Shown piece after piece: positions 1,416-5,632 of a DNA stretch of 41,138 nt. Within the stretch, counting starts at the first letter, position 1; the number at the start of each line of letters is the position of its first letter. A program made the position numbers and the translations under genes. Origin of the DNA: a virus; the IMG/VR virus record IMGVR_UViG_3300017989_000206, positions 1-41,138 of that record. One strand, given 5' to 3'. The notes under the pieces are model-generated. The model searched no databases. It had not been told where the DNA came from and saw only the letters and a program-made list of their open reading frames with translations.

Positions 1416-1757
1416 ATGGGAAGAACAATAGAAGTAAGCGAAGAAATATACGAAAAAATAAGAGAACAGTTAGGAGAGGATTCATACAAAGAAATCCAAT
1501 CCTTACAAGATATGGTTGGAGAAAAGTTCTTTTTTAGAACTGTTACGTATCATCTAACAGGAAGAGTTAAAAAAATAATTGGGTCTATTATTGAGCTTGA
1601 GTGTGCCGCTTGGATTGCAGACTCTGGAAGATTTAATGAGGCAATAAAGGAAGGTAAATTAAACGAAGTAGAGCCAGTTGGTAGAGCTTTTATAAACACA
1701 GCGTCACTGGTTGATTTTTTCCCCTGGAAGCACAAATTGCCCAGCGAGGTTAAATGA
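1416..1757 (+). CDS. Conserved hypothetical phage protein, 113 aa
   Basis: Good ribosome site (AAAGGAG, spacing 8) and a compact soluble protein. The N-terminal third (residues 1-35, EVSEEIYEKIREQLGED) looks like a ribbon-helix-helix or small helical module. The rest has a conserved-looking LECAAWIADSGRF segment and a PVGRAFINTASLVDFFPW segment around 85-104. Comparable small proteins occur in early regions of other phages, but I cannot name the family. Its TGA overlaps the ATG of the repeat gene, so the two are probably coupled. Confidence 0.65.
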   Translation: MGRTIEVSEEIYEKIREQLGEDSYKEIQSLQDMVGEKFFFRTVTYHLTGRVKKIIGSIIELECAAWIADSGRFNEAIKEGKLNEVEPVGRAFINTASLVDFFPWKHKLPSEVK

Positions 1758-2008
1758 TGTTACTCCAGGAATATTGGTCTAGGTCTATATCTAGGTCTAG
1801 GTCTGGGTCTAATTCTTGGTCTGCGTATTTGTCTAGGTCTATGTCTGGGTCTTGGTCTTGGTCTGCGTCTTGGTCCATGTCTGGGTCTTGGTCTGGGTCT
1901 AGGTCTAGGTCTATGTCTGGGTCTGGGTCTAGGTCTAGGTCTAGGTCTATGTCTGGGTCTGGGTCTGGGTCTAGGTCTATGTCTAGGTCTGGGTCTAGGT
2001 CTTGGTAG
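1754..2008 (+). CDS. Ser-X dipeptide-repeat protein built on a hexamer tract
   Basis: An 84-residue frame starts in an ATGA overlap with the upstream gene, with GAGGT six bases before the second ATG. From residue 8 onward every second residue is Ser, nearly always TCT, alternating with Arg, Gly, Trp, Met, Ala or Ile. The variation comes mostly from the first base of an (A/G/T)GG or ATG codon. It resembles an SR/GS low-complexity, probably disordered, basic protein. Because the unit is six bases, all reading frames through it stay open, so coding is not proven. The ATGA coupling favours translation on this strand. No homologue is recognised. Confidence 0.45.
   Translation: MMLLQEYWSRSISRSRSGSNSWSAYLSRSMSGSWSWSASWSMSGSWSGSRSRSMSGSGSRSRSRSMSGSGSGSRSMSRSGSRSW
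1775..2005 (+). repeat. Imperfect NNGTCT hexanucleotide tandem repeat
   Basis: About 38 tandem six-base units, mostly AGGTCT, GGGTCT, TGGTCT and ATGTCT, with a few GCGTCT, ATATCT and AATTCT variants. Several blocks begin ATGTCT-GGGTCT, hinting at higher-order duplication. The last four bases of each unit are nearly constant while the first base varies. It sits exactly inside the Ser-X repeat frame. Confidence 0.95.
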
Positions 2009-2875: not shown

Positions 2876-3124
2876 ATGAATTGCCGAAAGGAAAATATAA
2901 CTGTTTTTAAGAGGGAGTACCCTGTATTGTCTGGTCCTTACTTCTTGTTTGAGCAAAATTTTTGGATAGACGAAAAAAGATATACCTATTCAATGCGTTA
3001 CAAAATAGACGTTTCGTTAGAGACAGCATACGATGATTTTTATAAATTAGCTGACTCATCTTATAGGAGACTAAAAGAAGAAAGGAATATGGGATGCCTT
3101 ACGCAAGGGGAGAAAAAGAGGTGA
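2876..3124 (+). CDS. Hypothetical protein, 82 aa
   Basis: Starts five bases after an AGGAGG and one base after the upstream stop. The protein is aromatic-rich and mixed alpha/beta (REYPVLSGPYFLFEQNFWIDEKRYTYSMRY), then a helical C-terminus (SLETAYDDFYKLADSSYRRLKEE). Its stop overlaps the GTG start of the acyl carrier protein as GTGA, so the two are likely coupled. No family recognised. Confidence 0.65.
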   Translation: MNCRKENITVFKREYPVLSGPYFLFEQNFWIDEKRYTYSMRYKIDVSLETAYDDFYKLADSSYRRLKEERNMGCLTQGEKKR

Positions 3125-3363
3125 ACCCAGAGAAAATTAAAGAAGATGTAATTGATATTATATGTGAAATAGGAACTCTTAACCCTCGTGAGATTCACGA
3201 CCATACTACTTTAGATCAGTTAGGGCTTGACTCTTTAGACATTACTGAAATCTCAATGGAAATAGAAAATCTTTACGAAATAAATCTTGATGAAATATCT
3301 ATCGCGGAATTAAAAGACCATACTCTGCAAAGCATCATTAACATAATAGAGGAGAAAATATGA
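3121..3363 (+). CDS. acpP-like: Acyl carrier protein
   Basis: An 80-residue acidic protein with the acyl-carrier-protein fold and the phosphopantetheine attachment motif LGLDSLDITEISMEIE (Ser38 from the GTG start). A helix-rich layout and an acidic recognition helix follow. Once the Ser receives 4'-phosphopantetheine it carries acyl groups in fatty acid, lipid A or related synthesis. I chose GTG 3121 because it gives the canonical ACP length, overlaps the upstream TGA as GTGA and follows GGGGAG at spacing 8. ATG 3094 would add nine residues. No other acyl-synthesis gene is in the window, so it must work with host enzymes, either feeding or titrating them. The family call is strong; the purpose is open. 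Confidence 0.88.
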   Translation: MNPEKIKEDVIDIICEIGTLNPREIHDHTTLDQLGLDSLDITEISMEIENLYEINLDEISIAELKDHTLQSIINIIEEKI

Positions 3364-4308: not shown

Positions 4309-4898
4309 TATGTATGGTTAATCCTAGCTAAAACTTGTACCTGAGTGTCATTAACCAGAAGAATCTCCCATTCAAAGGCATCATCTGTAGCACTTACTCC
4401 TGTCCATCCACTAGCATTGTTTATCATACTTGTGCGAATAGCATCAACATCCTCTGTTCCATTTTTATCAGTACAGGTTATTATTATGTCAGTTCTTATT
4501 GTTTGGCTTACTCCATCCTCTGTCTTTTCATCTTCTAATTCTAGTGATGCCGTTATCCCATCTGCCGTAAGGTCTGCAAGGATTTCTGCCATTAGGAGTG
4601 TGGTCTTGTTTGTTGATGCAGTTACAGTTTGTGATAGAGAGATATCTGTGTCTGTTCCATCAGCGTTTATTGCAGTGAAAAGGATTGTACCAGCAGCTAC
4701 AGTGCCTATCTTAGAGCCTAAAATAGAACCAGATGTGTAGGTGGTTCCAGCAGATAAAGTCATAGCAAAATCAACCCCATTTACTCTTACACTAACATAA
4801 GTTGGAGCATTGGCTATATCTACTGTGAATATTGTGCTTTCAGACGTTGTTATGTTGTTGTCTGACGTTGCTGGTGCTGATATTACTGGTACTGCCAT
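4308..4898 (-). CDS. Beta-rich virion-type protein, 196 aa
   Basis: A Thr/Ser/Asp-rich protein with no Cys-rich or membrane region. Residues 1-95 look like an immunoglobulin-like or similar beta sandwich (VRVNGVDFAMTLSAGTTYTSG, TILFTAINADGTDTDISLSQ). The rest has a helix (KTTLLMAEILADLTADGI) and more strands. It is the most downstream of the fibre/decoration-like genes. Composition and position suggest a virion or secreted surface protein; no family is recognised. Confidence 0.55.
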   Translation of the reverse strand: MAVPVISAPATSDNNITTSESTIFTVDIANAPTYVSVRVNGVDFAMTLSAGTTYTSGSILGSKIGTVAAGTILFTAINADGTDTDISLSQTVTASTNKTTLLMAEILADLTADGITASLELEDEKTEDGVSQTIRTDIIITCTDKNGTEDVDAIRTSMINNASGWTGVSATDDAFEWEILLVNDTQVQVLARINHT

Positions 4899-4930: not shown

Positions 4931-5632
4931 TTACTTTGCCACCTCTAGCCTTGAACCCATAGTGTTTGATTTGTAGTGAAAATCAACTTCTAATAAATAA
5001 ACGACATCATCATAGTTGTCTGCTACAGATGTGTCTCTTTCGAGCGAACAGATTAGCATACTTGATACGCCATCTATTCCGGAACCGTCCATAGAATCTT
5101 CAATTTCTCCTAAGTAATGCGTGTCTGCTGAAAGGTTTTGAACATCTATTGTGGCTGTTGCAGGAGTTGATGCTGGGAACGCATCTCCAATATTAGCCCA
5201 ACTGTATGTAAAATCCCACTTAACATTCTCAGCCCCAGCACCAGACCCTCCTGTCGGGAGTACATAGTGAATATGAAACTCTATATCACTTCCAAGCTCG
5301 TATCTGTGAGGCACTTGAACATTGAAATAAATCTTTTGATTTTGTATTTTTGAGAACGACAACACGCTACCGTCTCGATAAGAAGCAGACGATGGTGGAT
5401 TCGTAGAATCTAACTTAACTGCATTAGCAGGCGTTCTTAAATCGTCCCATACTGCTTGTGTAAGCTCTAATGTTTTTGCAGTTCCGCAGTCTAATACAAG
5501 GTCAGATGGGTTTACTAACCCTGTTTTAAGATTCATATCCGTTCCATCATAATAGGCTTCAACATCATTTCCTGTACCGAATATCAATTTAAGAAGGTCG
5601 TTAAACTTTCGCCTTAGATTACTAGACCTCAT
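4931..5632 (-). CDS. Fibre/decoration-type structural protein, 233 aa
   Basis: The N-terminus holds an anchor-like motif, FGTGNDVEAYYDGTDMNL (residues 18-35). A closely related GTGND...YDGT motif occurs in the beta-helix protein at 8618-10228. The remainder is beta-rich (QNQKIYFNVQVPHRYELGSDIEFHIHYV, then DDVVYLLEVDFHYKSNTMGSRLEVAK) and could form a jelly-roll-like domain. Its start overlaps the end of the upstream gene by 11 bases. I infer a virion surface or fibre-associated protein; no enzymatic motif is visible. Confidence 0.6.
   Translation of the reverse strand: MRSSNLRRKFNDLLKLIFGTGNDVEAYYDGTDMNLKTGLVNPSDLVLDCGTAKTLELTQAVWDDLRTPANAVKLDSTNPPSSASYRDGSVLSFSKIQNQKIYFNVQVPHRYELGSDIEFHIHYVLPTGGSGAGAENVKWDFTYSWANIGDAFPASTPATATIDVQNLSADTHYLGEIEDSMDGSGIDGVSSMLICSLERDTSVADNYDDVVYLLEVDFHYKSNTMGSRLEVAK

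Follow-up and report, generated by a model that had tools for sequence, protein, structure and literature searches.

What does a long, nearly uniform hexamer tract do in a phage genome? At one such tract, downstream of a small gene, the initial annotation offered three answers: a fast-evolving disordered protein, a phase-variable tract, or a DNA element. The window analysed here is a whole phage record of 41,138 nucleotides (41 kb), which carries genes for a terminase, a head-tail adaptor, a major head protein, a tail protein, a DnaB-like helicase, Erf, and an exonuclease. We examined the tract, its reading frames, and its counterparts in related phages, together with the genes that accompany it.

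Results

The tract and its reading frame

Tandem Repeats Finder resolved the window's only array into 38.5 copies of a 6-bp unit (score 231), bearing out the earlier count of about 38 units, with a weak 36-bp higher-order period also present. A pattern of seven GTCTNN units had 16 matches in the window and none in 100 dinucleotide shuffles. We use S-X for the frame in which serine alternates with a variable residue X. This frame is open from the ATG at 1754 to the TAG at 2008 (84 aa), and the peptide reads MMLLQEYWSRSISRSRSGSNSWSAYLSRSMSGSW...SRSW. As first described, an ATGA joins it to the upstream gene, hereafter gene A (Table 1): the start codon (1754-1756) overlaps the stop codon TGA (1755-1757), an arrangement through which the two genes may be translationally coupled. 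The initial annotation also held that serine codons stay TCT, which is true of nearly all of them, the exceptions being one TCC and one broken pair (TAT TTG). Its further claim that variation falls mainly on the first base of alternate codons holds for most X codons (AGG/GGG/TGG), though ATG and GCG alter the second base too.

Table 1. Features of the repeat locus in the window.
Feature	Position	Strand	Basis
Gene A, 113-aa protein with a predicted Sm/LSm-like fold, constant neighbour of the repeat gene	1416..1757	+	Relatives; AlphaFold2 model
ATGA, overlap of the gene A stop and the S-X start	1754..1757	+	Sequence; same overlap in relatives, e.g. L009 and phage MW202573
S-X gene, 84-aa peptide MMLLQEYW-(Ser-[Arg/Gly/Trp/Met])n	1754..2008	+	Open frame; S-X frame and composition kept over 183 arrays
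Hexamer array GGTCTN, coding for the repeat, main variable position the first base of the X codon	1776..2006	+	Repeat finding, pattern counts, array comparison

Codon usage and composition were counted over 183 non-redundant arrays, about half of which came from a GGTC DNA pattern, a source of bias. The DNA unit differs among relatives (GGTCTN, GGTCGN, GGTCAN, GGAGCN, or GGAGTN), and common to all five is a serine codon, from the TCN or the AGY block, followed by an NGG codon. The major serine codon was TCG in 73 arrays, TCT in 66, TCA in 24, AGC in 16, AGT in three, and TCC in one, with a median uniformity inside an array of 96%. Arginine, glycine, and tryptophan took shares of 0.32, 0.30, and 0.27 of the X residues; in the 78 arrays picked by gene A homology alone, the shares among those three residues were 0.39, 0.32, and 0.30. 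Arginine was written with AGG only in 93 arrays, with CGG only in 62, and with both in 19, a single codon thus serving in 155 of 174, and rare variant loci use AGA, AAG (Lys), or CGA/CTA. The NGG codons can be understood as the one-step neighbours of the sole tryptophan codon that yield arginine and glycine. Because the serine codon differs between phages and is uniform within a tract, and arginine is rarely encoded by both AGG and CGG in one array, the codons indicate conservation of the peptide rather than of any DNA or RNA motif.

Variation within the arrays is concentrated at one base. In 55% of units across the 183 arrays, the first base of the X codon was not the one most common in its array, compared with 2-10% for the other five positions and 5% for synonymous serine wobble. 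Since the wobble is near-fixed while the X base varies, the arrays are young and regularly re-expanded, with the three-residue mix retained. Composition between arrays was near multinomial (dispersion 1.3-1.4), and residue order was close to random. The peptides are Trp-rich, with a median net charge of +10.

The S-X frame was open in 152 of 155 arrays and ended a median of three codons past the array. In 98 of those 152 it had a start that carried a Shine-Dalgarno motif or overlapped the upstream stop; the corresponding counts for the other frames were 2 of 106 and 15 of 146. Read in its Gly-X frame (GL, GR, GV, GA), the window array is attractive in that the variable base would be synonymous; this alternative had start signals in only the 2 of 106 open cases, its residues differ from phage to phage, and we rejected it. 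Tract length, which the initial annotation had proposed comparing among related phages, differs by whole units: one pair of contigs (L017 and L018) with flanks over 99.7% identical differs by 20 units lost in frame, and another (L043 and L076) by internal units. Frame breaks inside the tract were few, and the majority of those flagged appear to be adjacent S-X genes, each with a start of its own.

On comparative evidence, then, positions 1754-2008 are a real (Ser-X)n coding frame. Start signals that single out this frame and near-identical genomes that differ by whole units favour the fast-evolving disordered protein, and the scarcity of in-tract frame breaks, with 6-bp units that keep length differences in frame, tells against a phase-variable coding repeat. 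The disordered-protein reading was nevertheless too small, as it missed a constant Sm-like neighbour and a parallel module built on glycine.

Gene A, a constant neighbour with a predicted Sm-like fold

Gene A had no match in Pfam, PHROG, or NCBIfam. IMG/VR supplied 94 relatives, metagenome-assembled genomes two, and the named phage record MW202573 a further one, at 40% identity; relatives were absent from the plasmid records searched. The AlphaFold2 model (pLDDT 77), a prediction and not a solved structure, has the N-terminal helix and small, bent five-strand barrel of Sm-type proteins. All of its listed PDB matches were Sm/LSm-type, and its matches among viral proteins include DUF6948 proteins. 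Gene A is therefore predicted to adopt an Sm/LSm-like fold. Counting against this assignment, the fold scores are middling (Z 7-8, Foldseek E about 1e-3), and sequence searches found no Pfam LSM/Hfq match at E 0.1 and no Sm match, nor anything credible, in the PDB at E 1. In one relative (L004:8010-8012), codon 5 of gene A is TAA (MKTI*ISDE) where other relatives have glutamate, which could reflect a nonsense mutation, an error in sequencing, or recoding.

An S-X open reading frame lay within 300 nt of gene A on the same strand in 65 of 80 loci selected by homology, and in the first eleven relatives the array was directly downstream or upstream of the gene, so the order can be reversed. Thirteen gene A loci had no long S-X frame; several of these are cut by the contig end, or carry short, degenerate, or variant repeats. 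The next commonest neighbouring family within about 5 kb occurred at only 17 of 77 gene A loci.

A scan in the opposite direction, for GGTCNN arrays by DNA pattern only, returned 120 loci, some of them near-duplicates, and gene A was present in 46. A second small gene, gene B, was found in 32 of the loci without gene A, typically 20-200 nt upstream of the array. It is a remote homologue of gene A (hhalign E 1e-5), with an alignment too variable to serve as a scan query of its own. Of the 42 remaining loci, 10 were homogeneous simple repeats, 17 were cut less than 330 nt upstream, and 15 had flanking sequence; one of these 15 (L133) holds a divergent gene that by eye has the same look as genes A and B. 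At L147/L174 and L172/L207, S-X genes have enough flank and no recognisable Sm-like neighbour.

A single Sm-like gene may have several S-X genes in tandem beside it (L047, L096, L106, and L110), and the N-termini of S-X peptides differ between the gene A and gene B groups. The tandem S-X genes of L096, L106, L110, and L125 each have their own near-identical N-terminus (e.g., MITKRTKWRR, MNPAIQAW). One gene A locus, L087, bridges both kinds of repeat, with an acidic Gly-X peptide on its upstream side (4705-4866) and a degenerate S-X one on its downstream side (5257-5472). Elsewhere, at L007:9660-9940, a separate frame of Ala-Tyr/Ala-Asp repeats (GCT TAT / GCT GAT units) lies 1.3 kb downstream of gene A.

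The gene pair sits among small genes, and by eye its recurrent neighbours look like nuclease, methyltransferase, and RecA types. In the window, an ORF at 716-943 matches PF01555 over positions 154-221 of 221, so that an N6/N4 DNA methyltransferase is represented by its C-terminal end alone. A gene for a phage acyl carrier protein (PF00550, E 1.8e-9) follows 1.1 kb downstream of the tract, at 3094-3363.

A parallel module beside DUF6948

Because gene A and DUF6948 are both predicted to be Sm-like, we tested DUF6948 loci for a repeat neighbour, presuming that Gly-rich repeats follow DUF6948 genes. The query, a DUF6948-like sequence confirmed by Pfam as PF22253, matched 15 records in the phage collection and 492 loci in IMG/VR. 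As predicted beforehand, a dipeptide-repeat (Gly-X, or G-X) frame was found in 78 of the 80 IMG/VR loci fetched, some of which are near-duplicates. The frame usually starts inside the DUF6948 gene, at an ATG 13 nt short of that gene's end. Its X residues are chiefly serine (0.34), tyrosine (0.24), and aspartate (0.20), its glycine codon is mostly GGC, and the peptides are acidic, with a median net charge of -9. A Gly-X frame stood beside DUF6948 in every phage region read, including those of phiPLPE, Vibrio phage IKEMa6-1, Chlorobiaceae phage CV-1-33, Pectobacterium phages Sabo and Ymer, and Dickeya phage Setonix.

The DUF6948 model (pLDDT 96.7) had Sm/LSm-type structures as its top Foldseek hits. 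Gene A resembles DUF6948 in predicted fold and context only: Pfam gave no match between gene A and PF22253, and hhalign between A1 and DUF6948 gave a non-significant E of 0.06. A common origin is possible. As the sequences are not significantly similar, the S-X and G-X modules may instead be convergent.

Several individual records deserve mention. In phiPLPE (L220; NC_011142.1, 46046-46255), the (KMGCCG)35 repeat is a Gly-[Asp/Tyr/Ser] coding frame beside the DUF6948 gene phiPLPE_84. In MW202478.1 (L308:1167-1785), the annotated CDS UOF77468.1 runs from the array, read in the wrong frame (MAMAMALA...), into DUF6948, and the true G-X gene is likely 1167-1373; phrog_18306 seems to hold both a repeat stretch and DUF6948, and may be either a genuine fusion or another such misannotation. 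We found no convincing natural fusion of an Sm-like protein to a repeat, the apparent hits being stop-to-stop reads of wrong frames. At L218:1767-2288, L222:1716-2336, and L307:1767-2528, which are two gut-phage records and a Monoglobus plasmid, a G-X tract is joined to a C-terminal domain of about 150 aa, which reads DFYEWHHKLTGSC...FGGDVI; the tract is short in the two gut records with the larger joined domain, and the two domains scanned (L218 and L307) had no Pfam match. In the 2.17-Mb record NZ_CP119142.1, a Neisseria gonorrhoeae chromosome filed as a plasmid in PLSDB, DUF6948 occurs in three places, and at L306 (531924-535181) it is followed by a G-[Asn/Ser/Tyr/Asp] peptide. When the phylum of an FCB-group metagenome-assembled genome was searched for DUF6948, only that genome itself matched.

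Discussion

How the pair might act

The pair looks like a widespread two-gene phage module. In our judgement the chance is a little short of even that the tract encodes a small, disordered, multivalent (Ser-[Arg/Gly/Trp])n peptide acting with the adjacent Sm-like protein. The reading frame, the pairing, the three-letter composition, the change of length by whole units, and the DUF6948 and (Gly-[Ser/Tyr/Asp])n module are read from sequence; the Sm-like folds of gene A and DUF6948 are predictions. Under this proposal, the Sm-like protein would assemble into a ring or oligomer and in that form bind RNA or single-stranded DNA early in infection, and the repeat peptide would be its flexible tail, encoded in trans. 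Small alternating residues, Ser or Gly, would act as spacers, and the aromatic (Trp/Tyr) and charged (Arg/Asp) residues as stickers, whose multivalent weak contacts may draw the ring into clusters with nucleic acid or adjust its release, a role comparable to that of the tails of Hfq, SmD1/D3, and the repeat-bearing Sm proteins of Borgs. Tract length would change through recombination or slippage of 6-bp units, with selection holding composition rather than order. More tentative is a broader claim, that an Sm-like protein and a separate, aperiodic, three-letter dipeptide-repeat protein, cationic or acidic, form a two-gene module in phages of many hosts that makes a ribonucleoprotein or condensate during early infection, its composition selected while its order turns over. 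The opposite charges of the S-X and G-X peptides argue against one simple nucleic-acid-binding role for both.

Alternative explanations

The peptide might act alone, as a protamine-like or membrane- or host-directed product, with the Sm-like protein as a translational regulator or chaperone, an RNA-binding repressor of the coupled gene. Its strong positive charge and many tryptophans would suit such a role, as would the presence of several tandem S-X genes per Sm-like gene and the sometimes reversed gene order. We nevertheless consider this unlikely, given that N-termini differ between the gene A and gene B groups and that a protamine-like role cannot cover both modules, the G-X peptides being acidic. 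It is distinctly improbable that the two genes are a toxin-antidote or counter-defence pair, in which the peptide would be toxic to the host or poison a defence system under the control of the Sm-like protein: no similarity to known families was seen, and conservation apparently of composition, not order, would be unusual for a specific binding toxin, even if two small coupled genes, one fast-evolving, in an accessory position among small genes, are what such a pair might look like.

The remaining explanations take the open frame to be incidental. If the array were a selfish product of slippage, a hexamer that had grown neutrally where an operon ends and stayed open by chance, the observed whole-unit expansions and contractions would be expected and the low synonymous variation would reflect youth. 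Neutral expansion would not, however, repeatedly give serine with near-equal arginine, glycine, and tryptophan from different serine codons, hold arginine to one codon per array, preserve a start codon, or place arrays beside Sm-like genes, and we regard it as very improbable. The DNA element of the initial annotation, extended here to a DNA or RNA element such as an attachment site, origin, or structured RNA, we find scarcely credible. Such an element would account for units that are almost uniform in DNA, including at the synonymous serine wobble (5% off majority), and an attachment-site role has been suggested for the phiPLPE repeat (PMC3391216). The unit, however, changes completely between relatives while Ser-[Arg/Gly/Trp] persists, and start signals mark one frame. 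RNA structure was also tried and rejected: the window transcript folds better than its shuffles (z -4.3), but in other unit types the effect is weak, missing, or of opposite sign (z -2.1, -1.8, +0.6, -1.8, and +5.1).

Relation to known systems

We take the module to be new as a gene system, and its way of working likely resembles that of known tailed Sm proteins. Hfq and the eukaryotic SmD1 and SmD3 have disordered tails (RG-rich), and they share with the phage pair an Sm fold, here a predicted one, and a flexible, repetitive, charged tail, which in the known proteins tunes RNA binding. They differ in that the phage tail would be supplied in trans, consists of S-[R/G/W] or G-[S/Y/D] and not RG, and belongs to a protein with no sequence-level Sm match. 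Sm ribonucleoproteins of Borg elements carry amino-acid tandem repeats, with the disorder within one chain (PMC9879509). Both systems thus combine an Sm/Hfq-type protein with a rapidly evolving disordered tandem repeat on an extrachromosomal element, but the Borg repeat lies N-terminally in the Sm protein itself and has units 4-17 residues long (PMC9879509), and the phage repeat is a separate, mostly coupled dipeptide gene.

The nearest parallel is DUF6948 with its G-X gene, as in phiPLPE, Ymer, and IKEMa6-1: here too a small, predicted Sm-like gene overlaps a dipeptide-repeat gene with three main X classes and a near-uniform codon for the constant residue, although the peptide is Gly-[Ser/Tyr/Asp] and acidic, and the Sm-like protein is not significantly similar to gene A in sequence. 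The (KMGCCG)35 repeat of phiPLPE has been tabulated and proposed as an attachment site (PMC3391216). It is the same kind of array, it adjoins a DUF6948 gene, and its position matches the G-X frame; what was a DNA site in that work is a coding frame in our reading. In diversity-generating retroelements, too, a single base within a repeated motif varies rapidly. The window, however, holds a single array and no second (template) copy, variation tracks amino-acid classes and not adenine mutagenesis, with arginine classes usually excluding A or C, and no reverse transcriptase was found among the nine large window ORFs scanned.

Significance

The gene pair spans hundreds of phage contigs and named culturable phages, in which it is annotated only as "hypothetical protein" or missed. 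It was described nowhere in the open-licence literature searched, and DUF6948 was mentioned in none of it. Annotation may choose the wrong frame of such arrays, as in UOF77468.1, and the published attachment-site reading of the phiPLPE repeat is corrected here. One half of the module has a predicted RNA-binding fold, and the other is a disordered protein of extreme simplicity. Length, residue order, and codon choice all vary among natural forms of this second protein, yet its three residue types are retained. If the module is as we read it, nature would have run an experiment on the "sticker and spacer" grammar of disordered proteins. If both proteins act together, the pair would offer a tractable, evolution-sampled system for the sequence requirements of disordered proteins, and would represent a new class of phage RNA or single-stranded DNA handling.
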